The translations under genes were made by a program, and so were the position numbers. Under the pieces are notes generated by a model. The model was not told where the DNA came from. It saw only the letters and a list, made by a program, of their open reading frames with translations, and searched no databases. From a virus, in the IMG/VR virus record IMGVR_UViG_3300032287_001187, positions 1-20,288 of that record: DNA of 20,288 bases; one strand, given 5' to 3'. This document shows positions 1,671 to 12,911 of the stretch, piece after piece. How positions within the stretch are numbered: the first letter of the stretch is position 1; each line of letters starts with the position of its first letter.

Positions 1671-1672
1671 AT

Positions 1673-2803
1673 ATGAAAACATTAATTGAAATTAAAAACG
1701 CTATAAGCGAATTATTAAACTGTGATACTGATACTAAAATTAATTTAATCAATGATTTAAGAAGTTATATTCATGAAGTATCCCCTTTTAAAAATGAACC
1801 AGTTGATTTTGTTAAATGGGTAAAGTCTGAAAATGTAATAGCCAATGATTATAATCCAAACAAAGTAGCGCCACCTGAAATGACTTTATTAGAGATTTCA
1901 ATAACTAATGATGGATATACTCAACCAGTAGTAACATTCCCAAATGGAGATAAAATAGAAGTAGTTGATGGATTTCACAGAACAAGAGTTAGTAAAGAAT
2001 CTAAAGTAGTTAGAGAAAGAGTTTTGGGATATACTCCTACTGTTATAATTCGCAAAGATCAATCAGATAAAAATGATAGGATTGCATCAACAATAAGACA
2101 TAATAGAGCAAGGGGTAAACATCAAATAGATGCAATGAGTGAAATTATTTTAGAACTTAAAAACCGCAACTGGAAAAACGAAAGAATAGCAAGAGAATTA
2201 GGAATGGATGAAGATGAGATATTAAGACTTTGCCAAATAACTGGACTTCAAGATATATTTAAAGATGATGATTTTAATAAATCTTGGGAATCATCAGATT
2301 CAATATTAGATTATGAGCCATTGACAGATGATTTATCTGATGAAGAATTAGAGCATATTAGAACAGTAAATACAAATGACCCTGAAAGAATATTTCATAC
2401 ATTTGAAAAATGGGAGTGTCACAAAGCTGGATTTTATGCTTCTAAAAAAGAAGGTATGACAGCTGAACAATGCCAGTTAACATACGCTGAATACCTATCT
2501 AATGAAGATAGATTTAGAGAAGGGTTAAACGGTGTTATTAACGAATGGATTAATTCTTGTGAACATTATTTAACTAATAAAGCAATGAATAGAATTGCAT
2601 GGTTAGGCCAAGCTGCTATGTGTTATTCAACTGGAGTGCCATCTAAATATTGCTCAGGATTTAATTTACTTACACCTGAACAACAAGATAAAGCTAATTT
2701 AATTGCATTAGAAGCTTTAAATTATTGGAGGGGGAAATATAATAGAGATCCAATAACAATGGAAGAGGCATTATCAATTGGTAGACAAGTTAATATTTAT
2801 TAA
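1673..2803 (+). CDS. IbrB-like ParB-domain protein with extra C-terminal domain
   Basis: This 376-residue protein has a ParB/sulfiredoxin-type domain at about residues 45-150. The strand-turn motif VVDGFHRTR (97-105) matches the ParB core, and STIRHNRARGKHQ (139-151) matches the second ParB box. A helix-turn-helix follows (about 165-190). The N-terminal half resembles IbrB, the ParB-family partner of IbrA that was described in Escherichia coli as an activator of immunoglobulin-binding protein genes. Residues 225-355 form a separate region (WECHKAGFYA, SCEHYLTNKAMNRIAWLGQAA) that I have no name for. The next gene starts one base after the stop, so the two are probably co-translated and act together. 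Its AT-rich codon use differs from the flanking genes. Molecular role in a phage is unknown: regulation or DNA modification are both possible. Confidence 0.75.
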   Translation: MKTLIEIKNAISELLNCDTDTKINLINDLRSYIHEVSPFKNEPVDFVKWVKSENVIANDYNPNKVAPPEMTLLEISITNDGYTQPVVTFPNGDKIEVVDGFHRTRVSKESKVVRERVLGYTPTVIIRKDQSDKNDRIASTIRHNRARGKHQIDAMSEIILELKNRNWKNERIARELGMDEDEILRLCQITGLQDIFKDDDFNKSWESSDSILDYEPLTDDLSDEELEHIRTVNTNDPERIFHTFEKWECHKAGFYASKKEGMTAEQCQLTYAEYLSNEDRFREGLNGVINEWINSCEHYLTNKAMNRIAWLGQAAMCYSTGVPSKYCSGFNLLTPEQQDKANLIALEALNYWRGKYNRDPITMEEALSIGRQVNIY

Positions 2804-2804
2804 A

Positions 2805-4007
2805 ATGGCAACAAAAGTATATACAGATAAAACAGTTTTACAAGCATCAAAGGAAAGAATATCAATGGCATTTGATACATTTAAAAGAATTTATATTTCT
2901 TTCTCTGGTGGTAAAGATAGTTCAGTAATGTTTCATTTAATAATGGATGAGGCTATAAAAAGAAATATAAAAGTAGGTGTATTAATTATTGATTTAGAGG
3001 CACAATACAATGATACTATAATTCACATTGAACAAATGATTGAAATGTATAAAGATAATATTGAACTTCATTGGGTATGTGCTGAACTATTATTAAGGAA
3101 TGCTGTAAGTAATTACCAGCCAAGATGGGTATGTTGGGATGAAGATAAAAAAGATGTTTGGATAAGACCTAAACCAAAACAAGCATCTGATTTAACTCAA
3201 TATAATTTTTATGTACCTAAAATGGAGTTTGAAGAATTTATGGTAATCTTTGGGGAATGGTATTCTAAAGGAGAATTGACAGCTGCATTTATTGGTATTA
3301 GAGCTGATGAAAGTTTGCATAGATATAGAGCAATTGTATCTAAAAAAGATGGTTTAATGGTTAACAATTGGAAATGGACTACTAAAGTATCAAATAAACT
3401 TTTTAATGTTTACCCAATTTATGATTGGAAAACTGAAGATATTTGGGTTTATAATGGTAAAAACAAACATTTACATCACAATAGGGTATACGATAAAATG
3501 ATGATGGCTGGAGTTAAAATAAGTCAGCAAAGATTATGTCAGCCTTATGGAGATGACCAAAGAAAAGGATTATGGCTGTATCATATTTTAGAACCTGATA
3601 CATGGTATAAATTGGTTTCAAGAGTTAATGGGGTTAATTCGGGAGCTTTATATATTCAAGAAAATGGGAATATGACTGGATACCATAAAATAACCAAACC
3701 GAATGGCCATACTTGGGAATCATTTTGCAATTTACTTTTATCAACTATGCCAAAAAAAACAAGTGAACATTACCGAGAAAGGTTTATTAAGTTTATTAAA
3801 GGATGGCAAGATAGAGGGTATATAGTTATACCTGATGAAGCTCCTGAAGATTTAGAATCTAAATGCTGGGTACCGTCTTGGAGAAGAATGTGCAAAGTAA
3901 TTTTAAGAAATGATTATTGGTGTAAAGGTTTAGGACAAACACAGCCACTATCAGATGCTTATCAAAAATTTAAAGAAATTAAAAATTATAAAAAAACTAA
4001 TTTATAA
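2805..4007 (+). CDS. IbrA-like PAPS-reductase-family protein (DUF3440 type)
   Basis: This 400-residue protein belongs to the PP-loop ATPase superfamily. The nucleotide-binding loop is SFSGGKDSS at residues 32-40, followed by a beta strand ending LIIDLEAQYND. The later segment YPIYDWKTEDIWVYNGK, then MMMAGVKISQQRLCQPYGDDQ and SRVNGVNSG, follows the layout of IbrA and its DUF3440 region. A C-terminal WRRMCKVILRNDYWCKGLG also fits. Such proteins activate a substrate as an adenylate, often for sulfur transfer, but the substrate here is unknown. The start at 2805 gives MATKVYTDKT, one base after the ParB gene stops; an upstream in-frame TTG at 2778 is less likely. Like its partner it is AT-richer than the surrounding genes. 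It does not look like a normal cysteine-biosynthesis enzyme. Confidence 0.82.
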   Translation: MATKVYTDKTVLQASKERISMAFDTFKRIYISFSGGKDSSVMFHLIMDEAIKRNIKVGVLIIDLEAQYNDTIIHIEQMIEMYKDNIELHWVCAELLLRNAVSNYQPRWVCWDEDKKDVWIRPKPKQASDLTQYNFYVPKMEFEEFMVIFGEWYSKGELTAAFIGIRADESLHRYRAIVSKKDGLMVNNWKWTTKVSNKLFNVYPIYDWKTEDIWVYNGKNKHLHHNRVYDKMMMAGVKISQQRLCQPYGDDQRKGLWLYHILEPDTWYKLVSRVNGVNSGALYIQENGNMTGYHKITKPNGHTWESFCNLLLSTMPKKTSEHYRERFIKFIKGWQDRGYIVIPDEAPEDLESKCWVPSWRRMCKVILRNDYWCKGLGQTQPLSDAYQKFKEIKNYKKTNL

Positions 4008-4010
4008 AAT

Positions 4011-4631
4011 ATGTTTGACAACAATAGATATGGTTTAATAACTGGAAGTAGGTGTTCAGTTTTATTTCCTGATAGACAAACAAAAGAAAAAAAAGGGCAA
4101 AGAAGTTATGCTAAAGAACTTGCAAATAATATGTTCTTTAAATTTTACGATGAAAAAGGAACATGGCAAACTGAACATGGACACTTAGCAGAAAGCTCAG
4201 CATTTGAGTATTATCAGCAGCACTTTTGCAAGGATGCCGAGTACCAACCTAACTTTGAAATGTACATGGAGTTCGGAGGCTCAGCAGATTGTATCGCACC
4301 TGAATGGGGAGTGGACTTTAAATGTCCAACAACTTTACAAGGTTGGTTAGATTATCTTCACGAAGGAATTGATAAGCAACAGTACCACCAAGCCCAGATG
4401 TATATGTTCCTTTATGACCGACCTGAATGGCATATCTGCGCCTACTTACTTGAAACCAACAGAATGAGCGACAACGGACTAACTTATCCAGTAGACCATT
4501 ACAAACGAATGATAATAACTAAGGTAAAAAAAGAGGAAGGCTGGAGCGATTTACTATTGGAACGAGGCGAACCAGTTATTCAAATGAGGAATGAATTTTA
4601 CACCAACTTAATTAACAACTTTAGATCATGA
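4011..4631 (+). CDS. YqaJ-type phage exonuclease (PD-(D/E)XK fold)
   Basis: This 206-residue protein has the signature layout of YqaJ/lambda-exonuclease-type nucleases. An opening Y-GLITGSRCSVLF is followed by the helix EHGHLAESSAFEYY (E55, E61). GGSADCI supplies the catalytic aspartate D93, GVDFKCP supplies D102 and K104, and a Q-rich helix follows (QQYHQAQMYMFLY, about 123-135). The usual glutamate of the ExK motif is an aspartate here. Such enzymes resect double-stranded ends 5' to 3' for single-strand annealing recombination. No recognisable RecT, Erf or Beta partner lies next to it. Codon style changes inside the gene: the first 150-200 nt are AT-rich like the upstream pair, and the rest matches the phage backbone. 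Confidence 0.8.
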   Translation: MFDNNRYGLITGSRCSVLFPDRQTKEKKGQRSYAKELANNMFFKFYDEKGTWQTEHGHLAESSAFEYYQQHFCKDAEYQPNFEMYMEFGGSADCIAPEWGVDFKCPTTLQGWLDYLHEGIDKQQYHQAQMYMFLYDRPEWHICAYLLETNRMSDNGLTYPVDHYKRMIITKVKKEEGWSDLLLERGEPVIQMRNEFYTNLINNFRS

Positions 4632-5430: not shown

Positions 5431-5778
5431 ATGTCTAAATGTATTTCAGCTACTAAAAGAGAAAGAGTTTTTCTCAAGTATGATGGTAAATGTGCGTATT
5501 GTGGTTGTAGATTAAACCAAGATACTTTTCATATTGATCACATTATACCAAAATCAAGAAAAGGTAAAAATGATTTTGAAAATTTAAATCCATCATGTCC
5601 AACTTGTAATTCATGTAAAGGGACATTTTTAATTGAAGATTGGAGAAAATCTATTGAAAATAGGATTGATTCTGCATTAGATAAAAGCACCGATTTAAAA
5701 ATACTTTTTAAGTTCAAACAAATTGAACCAACATTTAACCCAGTAATATTTTATTTTGAAAAAAATGGCAGTAGGTAA
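5431..5778 (+). CDS. HNH endonuclease, free-standing
   Basis: This 115-residue protein shows a full zinc-supported HNH motif. CAYC (21-24), HIDHIIPKSRKG (34-45, catalytic H37) and ENLNPSCPTCNSCKG (50-64) supply both CxxC pairs and the conserved Asn. Such proteins nick or cut DNA, and free-standing phage copies are often homing endonucleases that spread into related genomes. The start codon lies 11 nt after a large hairpin, and the 3' end overlaps the replication gene by 14 nt. Codon style is AT-richer than the phage backbone and resembles the second HNH gene, suggesting acquisition. It is not inside any recognisable intron or intein. Confidence 0.82.
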   Translation: MSKCISATKRERVFLKYDGKCAYCGCRLNQDTFHIDHIIPKSRKGKNDFENLNPSCPTCNSCKGTFLIEDWRKSIENRIDSALDKSTDLKILFKFKQIEPTFNPVIFYFEKNGSR

Positions 5779-7290: not shown

Positions 7291-7941
7291 ATGATTGAAA
7301 TTAAAAACGGAATTAGATATTTTATACCTGATGTATTTGAACAATACGAATACAAAGGAATGTTAATTACTATTGAGAGCATAAATGAAACTGAAAAGTA
7401 TGTATTTGCTACACCTACAAAATTTGCTCATTTATTAAATTATGATAACCATTATGAATCAGATGAAATTTTAGAAAAAAATGGACACTTTATATGGAAT
7501 GAAAATTATGATTTTAACAATGATGAACCAGAATATAAAGAAGGTGAAATAGATTATTTTTTATTAGACCCATCTGATGAAACAATGATATTTATGAGAG
7601 GTATAGATATGACATCAACATCACATTTACTTGATTATATTGTTCATGAAATAAACTGGTGGTTTGGATATACACCTAAAACAGTAGTACTTAAACAAGT
7701 AAATAAAAAAAGTATTACACCAAAGACTTCAAAAAAACAAAGGGGATTTAATCAGGTTGCATGGTCTTCAATGGTAAAAATTAGGGATGGTAAATGTATG
7801 AAGTGCAGTAGTGTTTATGACTTACACGCTCATCATATTAAAAGTTTTAAAGACCACCCAGAACTAAGATACGATGTAAACAATGGAATAACACTTTGCG
7901 GAATTTGTCATAGATTAGAACACAAATTAAATGGTAAATAA
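7291..7941 (+). CDS. HNH endonuclease with unknown N-terminal domain
   Basis: This 216-residue protein ends in a clear HNH nuclease domain: CMKC (169-172), LHAHHIKSFKDHPELRYD (178-195) and NNGITLCGICHRLEHK (197-212) provide the His, Asn and zinc-binding residues. Residues 1-135 are a separate acidic region (NGIRYFIPDVFEQYEYKGMLI, EYKEGEIDYFLLDPSDETMIF, INWWFGYTP) that I do not recognise; it may recognise DNA or a partner. The gene sits between the helicase and a coiled-coil gene. Codon use is AT-richer than both, until about the HNH region. This looks like a second homing-type endonuclease inserted in the replication module. Confidence 0.78.
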   Translation: MIEIKNGIRYFIPDVFEQYEYKGMLITIESINETEKYVFATPTKFAHLLNYDNHYESDEILEKNGHFIWNENYDFNNDEPEYKEGEIDYFLLDPSDETMIFMRGIDMTSTSHLLDYIVHEINWWFGYTPKTVVLKQVNKKSITPKTSKKQRGFNQVAWSSMVKIRDGKCMKCSSVYDLHAHHIKSFKDHPELRYDVNNGITLCGICHRLEHKLNGK

Positions 7942-8457: not shown

Positions 8458-8492
8458 GTTCTATTGACCGCAGGGAAAGACCTGCAAAAAAT

Positions 8493-8575
8493 AGTCAGGT
8501 GGCGACATGGTGTTGTCGTAAATAGAATATCCGAGGTCGTAAGCCCTCATATAGGTTCGAATCCTGTCCTGACTA
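8493..8575 (+). tRNA. tRNA-like element with unresolved anticodon arm
   Basis: A perfect 7-bp acceptor stem pairs AGTCAGG (8493-8499) with CCTGACT (8568-8574), followed by A as discriminator. T8 and G9 follow. A D arm has stem 8502-8506 with 8515-8519 and GG in the loop. The T arm is 8551-8555 with 8563-8567 around the canonical loop TTCGAAT. These arms are in the right order and spacing for an 83-nt tRNA. However, the 31 nt between D and T arms (8520-8550) do not give a 5-bp stem with a 7-nt loop: the best pairing is GAGG (8533-8536) with CCTC (8545-8548) around an 8-nt loop. The isotype cannot be called, and CCA is not encoded. It may be a degenerate tRNA, an unusual class II tRNA or a tRNA mimic. 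Confidence 0.6.
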
Positions 8576-8595
8576 CAAATAAATTAAAACCACTT

Positions 8596-8847
8596 ATGTT
8601 AATTAACATCAACTTATGTCTTAGCGACATCCCTCAAGACAAAATCTTTACTTCTAAGAATGGCAAGAAGTACCTTTCAATTTGCGTAACTGATAGAAAA
8701 GAACCTGACCAGTTCGGTAATGACTTGACTGCCTACATCAATCAAAGCCAAGCCGAAAGGGAAGCAAAACAACCAAGAAAGTTTGTAGGTACTGCTAAGA
8801 ACTTAAAAAAGACTGCATTAACTGAAAAGAACGATTTACCTTTCTAA
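8596..8847 (+). CDS. Small phage protein with SSB-like C-terminal tip (83 aa)
   Basis: The 83-residue protein starts MLININLCLSDIPQDKIFTSKNG. The order of a hydrophobic beta strand, IPQDKIFTSKNGKKYLSICV, EPDQFGNDLTAYINQS and a polar linker matches a recurring type of small Bacteroidetes phage protein. It ends KNDLPF, which resembles the acidic -DDxPF tip with which bacterial SSB recruits partners, so it may bind host or phage replication proteins or compete with SSB. The ATG at 8596 is chosen because the longer frame from a TTG at 8464 would run through the tRNA-like element. Its stop overlaps the ATG of the NinG-like gene by one base. Confidence 0.62.
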   Translation: MLININLCLSDIPQDKIFTSKNGKKYLSICVTDRKEPDQFGNDLTAYINQSQAEREAKQPRKFVGTAKNLKKTALTEKNDLPF

Positions 8848-9476
8848 TGAAACAAAAAACTTGTAAAATCTGCAAGGTTAAGTTTGAACCATTTAAACCA
8901 CTTCAACAAGTATGTTCACCTGCTTGCGCTATATTGTTAGCTGAGAAAAACAAAGGTAAAAACGAAAAGAAAGAAAAGACTAAAATAAAAAAAGAGCTAA
9001 GAGAAGCAGCCAAGACTATCAGCACTTACAGAAAGGAACTTCAAATCATAATCAACAAGATAGTGCGAGAGATTGACGCAGGATTTAATTGCATTAGTTC
9101 TGGACGACCATACAAAACAAACGATCAAGCTGGACACTATTATTCGGTTGGGGCTTATCCGAGTTTAAGATTTAATCTTCATAACATTTACTCTCAATCG
9201 GTAGCTGATAATCTTTATAAGTCAGGCAATCCAATAGGGTTTACTCAGGGTTTAATTAGGGAATTTGGCGAAGATTGGTTTAAATTAGTAACTAAACTCC
9301 CAGAACAGTACAGAGAAATCAAGCTGGACAAAGAAGACATTAAACAGTGCATTCTAAACGCTAAGGACTTTCTTAAAATAGTGCAGGAATACAAGAAAGA
9401 AAACGAGTTAATGACCAGCCATCGGATTTATTTGCGAAACTTAGGTAATAAGACTATCGGAATTTATGCTGAGTAA
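8847..9476 (+). CDS. NinG-like recombination protein with altered second cysteine cluster
   Basis: This 209-residue protein resembles NinG (Rap) of lambdoid phages, which acts on recombination intermediates. The N-terminal zinc-type cluster is intact (C6, C9, C23, C27), then comes a lysine-rich helical linker (about 32-72). The core has CISSGRPY (82-89), DQAGHYYSVGAYPSLRFN (93-110) and SQSVADN (116-122), then GFTQGLIREFGEDWF. In typical NinG the core cysteines are CISC and QCxxCN; here the second Cys of the first pair is Ser85, and the QCxxC pair is Ser118 and Asp121. The AGHYxSVGAxPxLRFN core is kept. Expression is coupled to the upstream 83-residue protein and the downstream sigma-like gene (11-nt overlap). 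Confidence 0.78.
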   Translation: MKQKTCKICKVKFEPFKPLQQVCSPACAILLAEKNKGKNEKKEKTKIKKELREAAKTISTYRKELQIIINKIVREIDAGFNCISSGRPYKTNDQAGHYYSVGAYPSLRFNLHNIYSQSVADNLYKSGNPIGFTQGLIREFGEDWFKLVTKLPEQYREIKLDKEDIKQCILNAKDFLKIVQEYKKENELMTSHRIYLRNLGNKTIGIYAE

Positions 9477-10219: not shown

Positions 10220-10464
10220 ATCAAGATATTTACGATTTACTACTTCCTTTGAAACCAAAGTGGGAAGTCTACAAAACTGAACACCATTCAACATTTACTA
10301 ACATAGATTTTCACATTGTGCAGGAAGCATGGTCTAAAATGTTTGGCGCACCACCGAGAAACTTAGGTTGTCAATCATGTGTTCAGGAGTTACTAAGTAG
10401 AGTATTCAACCAATTTGATAAGTTCGTCCCTCAAACTAAAAAGAAAAGAAATGCTAAAGTTTAA
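10216..10464 (+). CDS. Conserved small phage protein (82 aa)
   Basis: This 82-residue protein contains APPRNLGCQSCVQELLSRVF, with a CxxC pair (C52, C55) and a helix. The tail is basic (KKKRNAKV). I recognise the type LGCQSCVQELL as common in Bacteroidetes phages but know no function. It may bind a metal with only two cysteines or act as a dimer. It starts in an ATGA overlap and ends 14 nt inside the glycosyltransferase gene. Confidence 0.5.
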   Translation: MNQDIYDLLLPLKPKWEVYKTEHHSTFTNIDFHIVQEAWSKMFGAPPRNLGCQSCVQELLSRVFNQFDKFVPQTKKKRNAKV

Positions 10465-11206
10465 ACATAGTGGTAATACTGGCGATATTATTTACTCACT
10501 AAACGCAATTAGGAAGGCTTGTCAAGATAATGAGTCTTTAGGCGTACTTTATTTGCATTTGAATCAACCTTTAAGACACATTATGGCAGGACACCCACTC
10601 GGCAACGTGATGCTAAACGAGTATATGTTTAAAATGCTCAAGCCTTTACTTCTCAGTTGTGACTTTATAGCTGATGTAATGGTTTACAATGGGCAGAAGA
10701 TTGATTACGACTTAGACAAGTTTAGGAATATCGGTTTAAACTTAGGAGCTGGAGACATTAAAAAGTGGTATTACTACGCACATCCTGAATTAACCTTTGA
10801 TATTGAAGGTCCTATCTTTACTTCAGAAAAGCCTAAAGAGGACTTTTTGCTAATAAATCGCACAAATAGGTATCAAAATGGGCAGATTGACTATTCTTAT
10901 TTAAATGATTACAGCATAAAGCAAATGTTTGCAGGTACTAAGGATGAATTTGAAGTAATGAAAAAGACCTTACCCAGACTTGAATATTTAAAAGTAAACG
11001 ACTTCAACGAGTTAAAAGACTATATCTCATCATCAAAAGTATTCATCGGCAATCAATCAATGTGTTTTGCGATAGCTGAGCAACTACAAACGGAGAGGAT
11101 TTTAGAGGTTTACTTTGGTTGCCCAAATGTTATTCCTGCAGGTGGGGAGTTTTACGATGTATTTAACCAGAACGGATTTAAACACGCTTTAAACAATTTA
11201 TTATGA
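10451..11206 (+). CDS. GT9-like glycosyltransferase
   Basis: The 251-residue protein starts MLKFKHSGNTGDIIYSLNAIR, where GDIIYSLNAIR resembles the N-terminal loop of heptosyltransferase-type GT-B enzymes (GDIIxxLPxI). The C-terminal segment VFIGNQSMCFAIAEQLQTERILEVYFGCPN matches the family motif for binding the nucleotide sugar (GNxSxxxxIAxxL). The protein is shorter than full GT9 enzymes (about 330-350), so the first domain is reduced. The ATG at 10451 gives a natural N-terminus; an upstream in-frame start at 10415 adds only a basic stretch. It is the first of three sugar/methyl genes in a row. Donor and acceptor are unknown. Confidence 0.6.
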   Translation: MLKFKHSGNTGDIIYSLNAIRKACQDNESLGVLYLHLNQPLRHIMAGHPLGNVMLNEYMFKMLKPLLLSCDFIADVMVYNGQKIDYDLDKFRNIGLNLGAGDIKKWYYYAHPELTFDIEGPIFTSEKPKEDFLLINRTNRYQNGQIDYSYLNDYSIKQMFAGTKDEFEVMKKTLPRLEYLKVNDFNELKDYISSSKVFIGNQSMCFAIAEQLQTERILEVYFGCPNVIPAGGEFYDVFNQNGFKHALNNLL

Positions 11207-11853
11207 AAAGTCACTATACACAATTAGAAAACGGAAGTTATAAGAGTAATCACTTCCATAAACCTGAAGACATTTACTTTAATGATTACTGGTCACCAAG
11301 TGCAAACCATTCAACTATTCACCAGCAAGTTGGAAACGTAGTAGAAAAGAATATACTTGTCAAAAACGCTTTAACTAAGATTGAACCTAAGAAAGTTTTA
11401 GAAATTGCCTGCGCTCCTGGTATTCTTTTAGGTGACTTATCAGAAGAGTTCAAATGTACTGGAATTGAGATAGACGAAAGATATAAGAACGACATTCAAG
11501 GATTTGCCAAAGATTCAGACTTACATTTCGGATTCTTTCCTGAAGTTACGGGGAATTGGGAAAGTGAGCAATTCTCAAACATTATCGCACTTGATGTAAT
11601 TGAACATATTGAAGACGGAAAAGGATTCTTAGAGGAATGCCATAGACTTTTAGTTAATGGGGGAAGGTTAATTATTCAAGCTCCAATGATTTTAGAGGAT
11701 GGGATATACGAGGAAAGCTCTTTCCATGAAGTTGAGCATATTTGGATTTATGACATTCAGCACATGAAACACATGTTAGTAGAGGCAGGATTCATTCCGA
11801 TTTCAGTTGAGAGGTTCAAAGTAGGTCATGAGCAAATAGTAGCTGAAAAATGA
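11203..11853 (+). CDS. Class I SAM-dependent methyltransferase
   Basis: This 216-residue protein has a Rossmann methyltransferase core. KKVLEIACAPGILLGDL (about 64-80) is motif I, CTGIEIDERY supplies the acidic residue after strand 2, FSNIIALDVIEHIEDGKGF is the motif IV region, and LLVNGGRLIIQAPM is motif V. The EHI after the D is the pattern of Methyltransf_11/23-type small-molecule or sugar methyltransferases rather than DNA base methyltransferases; there is no DPPY or PCQ. It lies between two glycosyltransferases, overlapping both by 4 nt, so a sugar or lipid acceptor is likely. Confidence 0.75.
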   Translation: MKSHYTQLENGSYKSNHFHKPEDIYFNDYWSPSANHSTIHQQVGNVVEKNILVKNALTKIEPKKVLEIACAPGILLGDLSEEFKCTGIEIDERYKNDIQGFAKDSDLHFGFFPEVTGNWESEQFSNIIALDVIEHIEDGKGFLEECHRLLVNGGRLIIQAPMILEDGIYEESSFHEVEHIWIYDIQHMKHMLVEAGFIPISVERFKVGHEQIVAEK

Positions 11854-12911
11854 AAATACTTGTAATTATACCAAAGCCAATAACGGGAGTTGAATACCAC
11901 CGCTTATTAATGCCCTTTGAGAATATGGGGGAAGGCTACGAAGTGACCGCAGTTGAGATAATAGACCAGCAACAAGATTCATTCTTTGAACAGTTTGACC
12001 TAATCTATACAAGTTCAGTAGTAAGTAAACAAGGATTTCAAGAAGTACTCTGGGCGCAGCTTAAACGCTTAGGCATTCCTGTAATAATTGATAGAGATGA
12101 CGACTGGCAGTTACCACATGACCACTTAATGAAAAGGGATTGGGTACAAAATAAGACAGCTGAACAAATAGTGTATAATCTAAAAATGGCTGATGCTGTA
12201 ACTGTGCCTACTGAGTATCTTGCTCAAAAAGTTAAACAATATAACCCAAATGTGTTTGTTATACCGAACGCTATTGATTTTAACCAAGCTCAGTTTAAAC
12301 CTGACCAAAAAATAAAGGACTTAAAAACTGATAAAGTTCACATTGGCTGGAGCGGTAGTGTTACGCATTTTCATGACGTAATGCTATTGACTGATACTTT
12401 TATGCAGTTAAACGCCAATCCTGACACGAGCAAAAAATATAGAGTAGTTTTGAGCGGATTTGTAGAAGGGGATTCAGTATGGAGCGAATATCAAAAAATC
12501 TTTACTTCAGGATACAAGATAGCAGAGGACCAGTACTGCAGAATAAACGGAATGGATGTCTTTACTTACGCAAGTGCTTACGATTTAATGGACGTTGGTT
12601 TAATTCCTTTAAAGGACACCGAATTTAACCGCTGTAAGTCAGAATTAAAAATGATGGAAATGGGGGCAAAAAGACTTCCAGTTGTAGTTTCGGACCAGTA
12701 CCCATATACCAATATAGCTAAACATGGGATTAACTGCCTAACTGCAAAAAAGAATACATGGTTTAAAAACATAAAGAGGTTAATTGACAGCAAAGAGTTA
12801 AGAGAAGACTTAGGCGAAGCCTTATATCAAGAAATATTTGCTAATTTTAATATATTACAAGTGAACCAATTAAGAAAGGAGTTATTTAATTATGTCACAA
12901 GGAAGAAATAA
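11850..12911 (+). CDS. GT4-type glycosyltransferase (GT-B fold)
   Basis: This 353-residue protein begins MKILVIIPKPITGVEYHRLL, the start of a GT-B N-terminal domain. ADAVTVPTEYLAQKVKQYNPNVFVIPNAID is the family pattern between domains. KVHIGWSGSVTHFHD opens the donor-binding domain, and LMDVGLIPLKDTEFNRCKSELKMMEMGAKRLPVVVSD is the EX7E-like donor motif region. Length is typical of GT4 enzymes. It probably transfers a sugar from a nucleotide donor to an acceptor made by its two upstream neighbours. It overlaps the terminase small-subunit gene by 20 nt, tying the cassette to the late genes. Confidence 0.75.
   Translation: MKILVIIPKPITGVEYHRLLMPFENMGEGYEVTAVEIIDQQQDSFFEQFDLIYTSSVVSKQGFQEVLWAQLKRLGIPVIIDRDDDWQLPHDHLMKRDWVQNKTAEQIVYNLKMADAVTVPTEYLAQKVKQYNPNVFVIPNAIDFNQAQFKPDQKIKDLKTDKVHIGWSGSVTHFHDVMLLTDTFMQLNANPDTSKKYRVVLSGFVEGDSVWSEYQKIFTSGYKIAEDQYCRINGMDVFTYASAYDLMDVGLIPLKDTEFNRCKSELKMMEMGAKRLPVVVSDQYPYTNIAKHGINCLTAKKNTWFKNIKRLIDSKELREDLGEALYQEIFANFNILQVNQLRKELFNYVTRKK

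Follow-up and report, generated by a model that had tools for sequence, protein, structure and literature searches.

Two adjacent phage genes, one encoding a ParB-like protein and the other a PP-loop protein, raise the question of what such a pair does for the virus that carries it. The genes lie in a 20,288-base window (the whole stretch of DNA analyzed here), positions 1 to 20,288 of the IMG/VR virus record IMGVR_UViG_3300032287_001187; the best named matches to the terminase of the window, at ~40% identity, are from Bacteroides and Parabacteroides phages. Homologues of the two proteins, known as IbrB and IbrA, are found in phages of many phyla and on chromosomes, e.g., at the Escherichia coli K-12 ybdNM locus. 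IbrA is mislabelled as a PAPS reductase in databases, and a literature search found no biochemical function for IbrA or IbrB. While the pair itself is known, what is new here is a previously unannotated third component, the C-domain, fused to IbrB on a phage cargo cassette. A first-pass annotation, made from the sequence alone, overlooked this component and the exchangeable accessory enzymes that we describe below. The features of the locus, all on the plus strand, are as follows:

1335–1670: left flanking gene, 111 aa, phrog_21613, function not annotated; backbone, outside the cassette
1671–4010: cassette, between the stop of the 111-aa gene (1670) and the exonuclease ATG (4011)
1673–2803: ibrB-like gene, 376 aa, stop codon TAA at 2801–2803, assigned by PHROG and by a structure model matching Noc/ParB/KorB in Foldseek; N-terminal helices, ParB/Srx-type nucleotide-binding domain, HTH-like segment, linker, and C-domain
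1967–1981: DGFHR motif, IbrB aa 99–103, counterpart of the ParB/Srx nucleotide-binding box
2090–2116: TIRHNRARG motif, IbrB aa 140–148
2120–2242: helix-turn-helix (HTH)-like segment, IbrB ~aa 150–190, from model helices and alignment with ParB/KorB
2384–2800: C-domain (“IbrC” part), ~139 aa, C-terminal in IbrB, all-helical; a separate gene in other phages
2805–4007: ibrA-like gene, 400 aa, start codon ATG; PP-loop ATP-pyrophosphatase of the CysH/CysD/FAD-synthase-like group, plus DUF3440
2904–2921: ATP PP-loop SGGKDS, IbrA aa 34–39
3510–3842: DUF3440 domain (Pfam), best stretch, IbrA aa 236–346
4011–4631: right flanking gene, YqaJ/lambda-exonuclease-like; backbone, outside the cassette

The first-pass annotation had the coordinates, the motifs, and the gap of one base between the two ORFs right, as judged by the ORF positions. 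Its proposal that the genes are co-translated also fits: with one base between them, ibrB and ibrA are probably translationally coupled. Similarly close spacing is seen in other loci arranged like that of the window, where the gap is 1 nt in 42/76, −1 nt (i.e., an overlap) in 16/76, and 2 nt in 13/76.

The upstream gene had been described as encoding a ParB-domain protein, and three lines of evidence agree. First, it matches phrog_2159 (“ParB-like”; E=1.9e-66). Second, direct comparison with E. coli K-12 YbdM gives 51% identity over 193 aa. Third, its AlphaFold2 model matches crystal structures of Noc, ParB, and KorB (Foldseek, best E=2.7e-6) with weaker matches to sulfiredoxin and to SerK (5x0k), a free serine kinase. 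The model has a pLDDT of 86.5 and a whole-model pTM of 0.48, so the relative orientation of its domains is tentative. The Pfam search that had been suggested as a check fell short, with ParB_N at 16.0 bits, below its cut-off of 26.3, although the PHROG and structural matches uphold the assignment. IbrB is a member of the YbdM (IbrB) family, with a ParB/Srx fold and a DGxHR box. The D, G, H, and R of DGFHR are invariant in 85/85 aligned IbrB proteins, as are R142, H143, N144, A146, R147, and G148 of TIRHNRARG, and helices 152–164, 169–176, and 180–189 of the model make up the HTH-like segment. IbrB is not a sulfiredoxin, since the catalytic Cys before HR is replaced by Phe in 82/85 proteins, including that of the window, by Tyr in two, and by Ser in one. 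A role as a chromosome or plasmid partition ParB was also rejected: the partner is IbrA in essentially all loci, and Pfam HTH_ParB does not match.

For the downstream gene, both parts of the earlier description, a PP-loop and a DUF3440-type tail, are confirmed by Pfam matches above cut-off (DUF3440, E=2.7e-36, 125.5 bits against a cut-off of 25; PAPS_reduct, E=1.1e-15, 58.5 bits against a gathering cut-off of 22.5). The protein also matches phrog_2302 (E=1.9e-87) and, in direct comparison, is 41% identical to E. coli K-12 YbdN over 391 aa; it is a member of the YbdN (DUF3440) family. These identities, the family profiles, and the adjacency of the genes bear out the original view that the phage carries an IbrA/IbrB-type pair. 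The S, K, D, and S of the PP-loop are kept in 179 of 180 aligned IbrA relatives, the remaining one being gapped, and the other near-invariant positions hold Arg, Glu, Asp, Trp, Asn, or Tyr. No cysteine is invariant among the 180 proteins; C245 is kept in 140/180 and C373 in 159/180, and subtypes differ in which cysteine is lost. The structures nearest to the IbrA model (Foldseek) are CysH, CysD (ATP sulfurylase), and FAD synthase. CysD and FAD synthase adenylate an oxyanion with ATP, while CysH requires a cysteine. Given this fold, the kept PP-loop, and the lack of an invariant cysteine, IbrA looks like an adenylating ATP-pyrophosphatase, as far as alignment and structural modeling can tell, and unlike a reductase or a cysteine-persulfide sulfurtransferase. 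The cysteine pattern counts against both PAPS reduction and Dnd-type sulfur transfer. Thus, where the first-pass annotation had suggested sulfur or adenylate chemistry, the sulfur option has lost ground, with cysteines lost subtype by subtype, and the adenylate option is strengthened by an essentially invariant, ATP-type SGGKDS.

IbrA and IbrB form an obligate, co-evolving pair. Of the records in the phage collection, 216 carry IbrA and 218 carry IbrB, and the taxa on the two lists are nearly identical. IbrB lies within 2.5 kb of IbrA in 166 of 170 IbrA loci, and three of the four exceptions are truncations at contig ends; their co-occurrence, which the earlier reading had put forward as a point to check, is non-random. 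The orders A-B and B-A are about equally frequent among the IbrA loci examined. Pairwise distances for IbrA and IbrB are strongly correlated (r=0.90 over 162 loci), against a permutation maximum of 0.13 (n=200).

YbdM stops where the IbrB of the window runs on for another ~139 aa. This extension, the C-domain, is modeled confidently as all-helical (pLDDT ~97 over aa 250–360; AlphaFold2). It has no match in Pfam, PHROG, or PDB sequences, and a Foldseek search with the whole IbrB model returned no match that annotates it. A separate gene encodes it in Microcystis phage Mwe-JY13, Pseudomonas phage Amjad_SA, Pseudoalteromonas phage XCL1123, and Mycobacterium phage Gaia (gp106). Two scans of the viral collection with the C-domain as sole query, considering the best 80 matches per scan, gave 76 new and 80 further loci. 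Among the matches listed, the C-domain adjoins IbrA in 156/156 viral loci, and IbrB is present in 154/156; in the other two, the C-domain is ~110 bases from a contig end. Because the scans used neither IbrA nor IbrB, this conserved neighborhood is independent evidence that the C-domain belongs to the IbrAB system, with architectures (BC-A, in which B and C are fused; B-C-A; and A-B-C) that are shuffled yet kept together. In the lineage of the window, the third component is fused to IbrB; elsewhere, it is a separate neighboring gene.

Comparison with known pairs shows how far this arrangement varies. The E. coli K-12 proteins share the invariant motifs and are likewise encoded by an adjacent, in this case overlapping, gene pair. 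However, the K-12 genes are in the order A-B on the chromosome, next to a LysR-type repressor gene (citR/ybdO), and YbdM lacks the C-domain, whereas the window has the order B-A, with C fused to IbrB, and its pair is carried as phage cargo. Metabolic and redox genes lie alongside the K-12 ybdNM locus. Microcystis phage Mwe-JY13 has a ParB gene, a 141-aa gene, and a PAPS-like gene in the order B-C-A, with 62% identity for IbrA and 56% for IbrB; it differs in that C is a separate gene and in having another YqaJ plus RecT downstream. Mycobacterium phage Gaia (gp103–gp106) also groups IbrA, IbrB, and the C homologue, but in the order A-B-C, with an EctC-like cupin on IbrB and an IbrA that lacks C245.

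The pair had been placed inside a phage recombination block, with a conserved recombination-associated protein on one side and the YqaJ exonuclease on the other. The label of the upstream neighbor is not supported, since its sole match is phrog_21613, to which no function is assigned. That of the downstream neighbor is supported in part: the gene matches exonuclease PHROGs of phages (E=3.9e-14), while no Pfam family recognizes it. We compared the backbone of the window with those around 27 viral relatives of the exonuclease gene. Neither IbrA nor IbrB is present in any of the 27, and in nine the site is empty, with the TAA of the 111-aa gene followed by 2 nt and then the exonuclease ATG; other relatives have different cargo in the slot matching 1671–4010. 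Seen from the other side, the DNA of 80 viral relatives of IbrA resembles the window over the pair alone (~1736 to 3985 in most), and none of the 80, which have other backbones, carries the exonuclease of the window. The pair is mobile as a unit and was acquired between two backbone genes as a “moron” cassette. Since the flanks generally occur without the pair, and the pair generally away from these flanks, the exonuclease neighborhood is incidental, and a functional link between the pair and a recombination block was rejected.

Codon usage also sets the pair apart, with GC at third codon positions (GC3) at 0.165 in the pair and 0.341 across the 24 backbone genes compared (Fisher p=5e-25). The AT-richer codon style noted at the outset is therefore real, but not peculiar to the pair, since two HNH endonuclease ORFs at 5431–5778 (GC3 0.14) and 7291–7941 (GC3 0.17) share it. 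Together with the relatives in which the flanks are joined directly, the GC3 contrast agrees with the earlier claim that the pair has a different history from its flanks. The first HNH ORF is found in 3/27 backbone relatives (L083, L096, and L107) and the second in 0/27; with their low GC3, both look like mobile insertions.

Other cargo was seen at and near the same slot. In four phages (L082, at 895–1632; L084; L089; and L097), the slot holds another ParB-superfamily protein of 246–249 aa, with an IIDGQHR motif, a match to phrog_12305, and weak GmrSD_N/DndB similarity, such that ParB-fold cargo of two kinds alternates at one slot. A second cargo site is the junction of the exonuclease and DnaA-C-like genes at 4628–4631, where several relatives have inserts of ~200–1050 bp; in the window, these genes overlap.

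Accessory genes divide the IbrA loci into subtypes, which we counted across 181 non-redundant loci. The C-domain is present in 105/181. A GNAT-like gene is present in 22/181, often between A and B, and never together with the C-domain (0/181, with ~13 expected under independence), an exclusion that is confounded by phylogeny. The GNAT label matches Pfam for few members and was checked with a held-out, Clostridia-only profile, which finds the Pfam-positive protein of L130 at 9e-14, the best shuffled sequence scoring 0.19. An EctC-like cupin occurs in 19/181 loci, as a separate gene or fused to IbrB, and always with the C-domain (19/19); examples from the A-B-C group, fused to or beside IbrB, are L112 (7302–8201) and L117 (6302–6694), and the IbrB-fused cupin of Gaia matches Pfam Ectoine_synth (1.3e-32). 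A SNF2-type helicase is found in 21/181 loci, mostly directly upstream of IbrA, and Pfam SNF2 matches 17 members of the accessory set. No shared defense or modification context surrounds the SNF2/GNAT loci; their chromosomal neighbors are unrelated and largely housekeeping, so these loci look like self-contained operons. C, GNAT, and cupin are all lacking from many IbrAB pairs, including those of E. coli and of several Streptococcus and Flavobacterium phages, meaning that no accessory is essential. A conserved ORF of ~125 aa, function not annotated, immediately precedes IbrA in three phage or MAG loci that are unrelated and lack both C and GNAT (L113, 571–948; L119, 7594–8004; L120, 7615–7995).

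As to what the pair does, we tentatively favor a modification of DNA or RNA that depends on adenylation and is targeted by the IbrB subunit. IbrB, with its ParB/Srx-type NTP-binding domain and HTH, would bind the nucleic acid. IbrA would bind ATP at the PP-loop and adenylate the target, which could then be modified without a catalytic cysteine in IbrA itself. Helpers of other lineages (C-domain, GNAT-like, EctC-like cupin, SNF2 translocase) may tailor or steer the reaction, and the likely benefit to the phage would be DNA or RNA changed so as to evade host nucleases or to alter expression. A more doubtful extension is that IbrA, IbrB, and the C-domain constitute an undescribed, modular, phage-spread nucleic-acid hypermodification system, in which the ParB-like subunit would target DNA, the cysteine-free PP-loop enzyme would adenylate, and interchangeable modules would set the subtypes. 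Iyer and colleagues, in a 2013 NAR survey of DNA-modification enzymes, reportedly predicted lysidine-like pyrimidines. If the pair is a modification system, it would represent a new class of phage DNA or RNA chemistry. The C-domain, the subtypes, and the invariant residues indicate which proteins to co-express and which residues to mutate, making the long-open biochemistry of IbrAB directly testable.

A parallel to modification is the CmoX/CmoY system for cytosine hypermodification, which, like the scheme proposed here, has an ATP-dependent, AMP-forming step and a frequent ParBc neighbor in phages (PMC12783734). It differs in that CmoY is of the asparagine-synthetase type, in another PP-loop group, and its methyltransferase partner is absent from IbrBA. 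Several observations weigh against modification: SNF2/GNAT loci have no consistent modification context, and the K-12 copy has metabolic and redox genes as neighbors; phylogeny confounds the GNAT/C exclusion, and no accessory is essential; and the sole published IbrAB phenotype, in which the IbrAB island of E. coli ECOR-9 activates prophage eib genes (Sandt 2002, as cited in PMC7649339), is also explicable by a simple regulator.

That phenotype leads to a serious rival, although we consider it fairly unlikely: IbrB and IbrA as co-regulators of transcription, with IbrB a ParB-type NTP switch on DNA and IbrA a modulating enzyme or ligand sensor, tuning host or prophage expression with no modification of nucleic acid. 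The resemblance of the IbrB fold and HTH to KorB, Noc, and ParB suits such a role. A complete ATP-pyrophosphatase site over ~180 diverse IbrA proteins, and enzyme-like GNAT and cupin genes, exceed what a regulator needs.

The other serious rival, also fairly unlikely, is that the pair acts on a small molecule (a nucleotide, amino acid, or cofactor), with IbrA adenylating it and IbrB serving as an NTP-dependent kinase like SerK or SbnI; the product would be a signal, an anti-defense metabolite, or a sulfur compound. Some proteins with the ParB/Srx fold are indeed free serine kinases (SerK; SbnI, profile E=0.018), and GNAT-like and EctC-like helpers would fit. Expression data from E. coli point the same way: sulfate-assimilation (cys) genes are up in a delta-ybdO strain, in which ybdNM is derepressed (PMC9068703). 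In that article, log2FC is 5.5 for ybdN and, in Table 1, 2.6–3.2 for cysJIH of the CysB regulon, ChIP-exo supports control by YbdO at its own ybdO-ybdNM promoter only, and the authors do not discuss a link between cys and ybdNM in the available part of the article. However, a large flagellar/lrhA change confounds the cys effect, which was measured with ybdNM present, and the IbrB HTH and SNF2 partners suggest DNA.

It is improbable that the pair is a toxin-antitoxin or superinfection-exclusion module in which IbrB holds a toxic IbrA in check. The genes do overlap or abut and co-evolve, and TASmania lists lmo1309/lmo1310 as a toxin-antitoxin pair (PMC7020466), but that entry was made through guilt by association, IbrB and IbrA are equally conserved, and K-12 retains both on the chromosome under a repressor. 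An auxiliary metabolic PAPS reductase that raises host sulfate assimilation during infection is highly improbable: many records carry that name and PAPS_reduct matches, but the PP-loop is of the ATP type, no cysteine is invariant, DUF3440 is present, and IbrA is tied to IbrB; membership in CysH was rejected on the cysteine pattern and on the score for NCBIfam TIGR00434 (29 against a cut-off of 165.1 bits). Dnd-like phosphorothioation, with IbrA as DndC and IbrB as DndB, is just as remote: the two systems share a CysH-like-group PP-loop enzyme and a ParB-like partner (DndB; PMC10853773), and IbrA has weak DndC similarity (TIGR03183, E=2.3e-4; PADLOC DndC, E=3e-6), but TIGR03183 scores 20.2 against a cut-off of 290.4 bits, the conserved cysteines are absent, and no DndD or DndE was seen in the 20-kb window, such that membership was rejected on scores and cysteines.

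An Rfam search of the whole window gave no match. Elsewhere in the window, a tRNA-Ser (aga) at 8493–8576 lies within an ORF called with a long start (8464–8847), which therefore probably begins later. Just upstream of the terminase genes, the region 10415–12911 includes overlapping genes for a class I methyltransferase (11203–11853) and a group-1-type glycosyltransferase (11850–12911), a possible modification or glycosylation module. Lastly, the early-gene region encodes a NinG-like protein (8847–9476; Pfam E=7e-36) of a recombination nuclease family.
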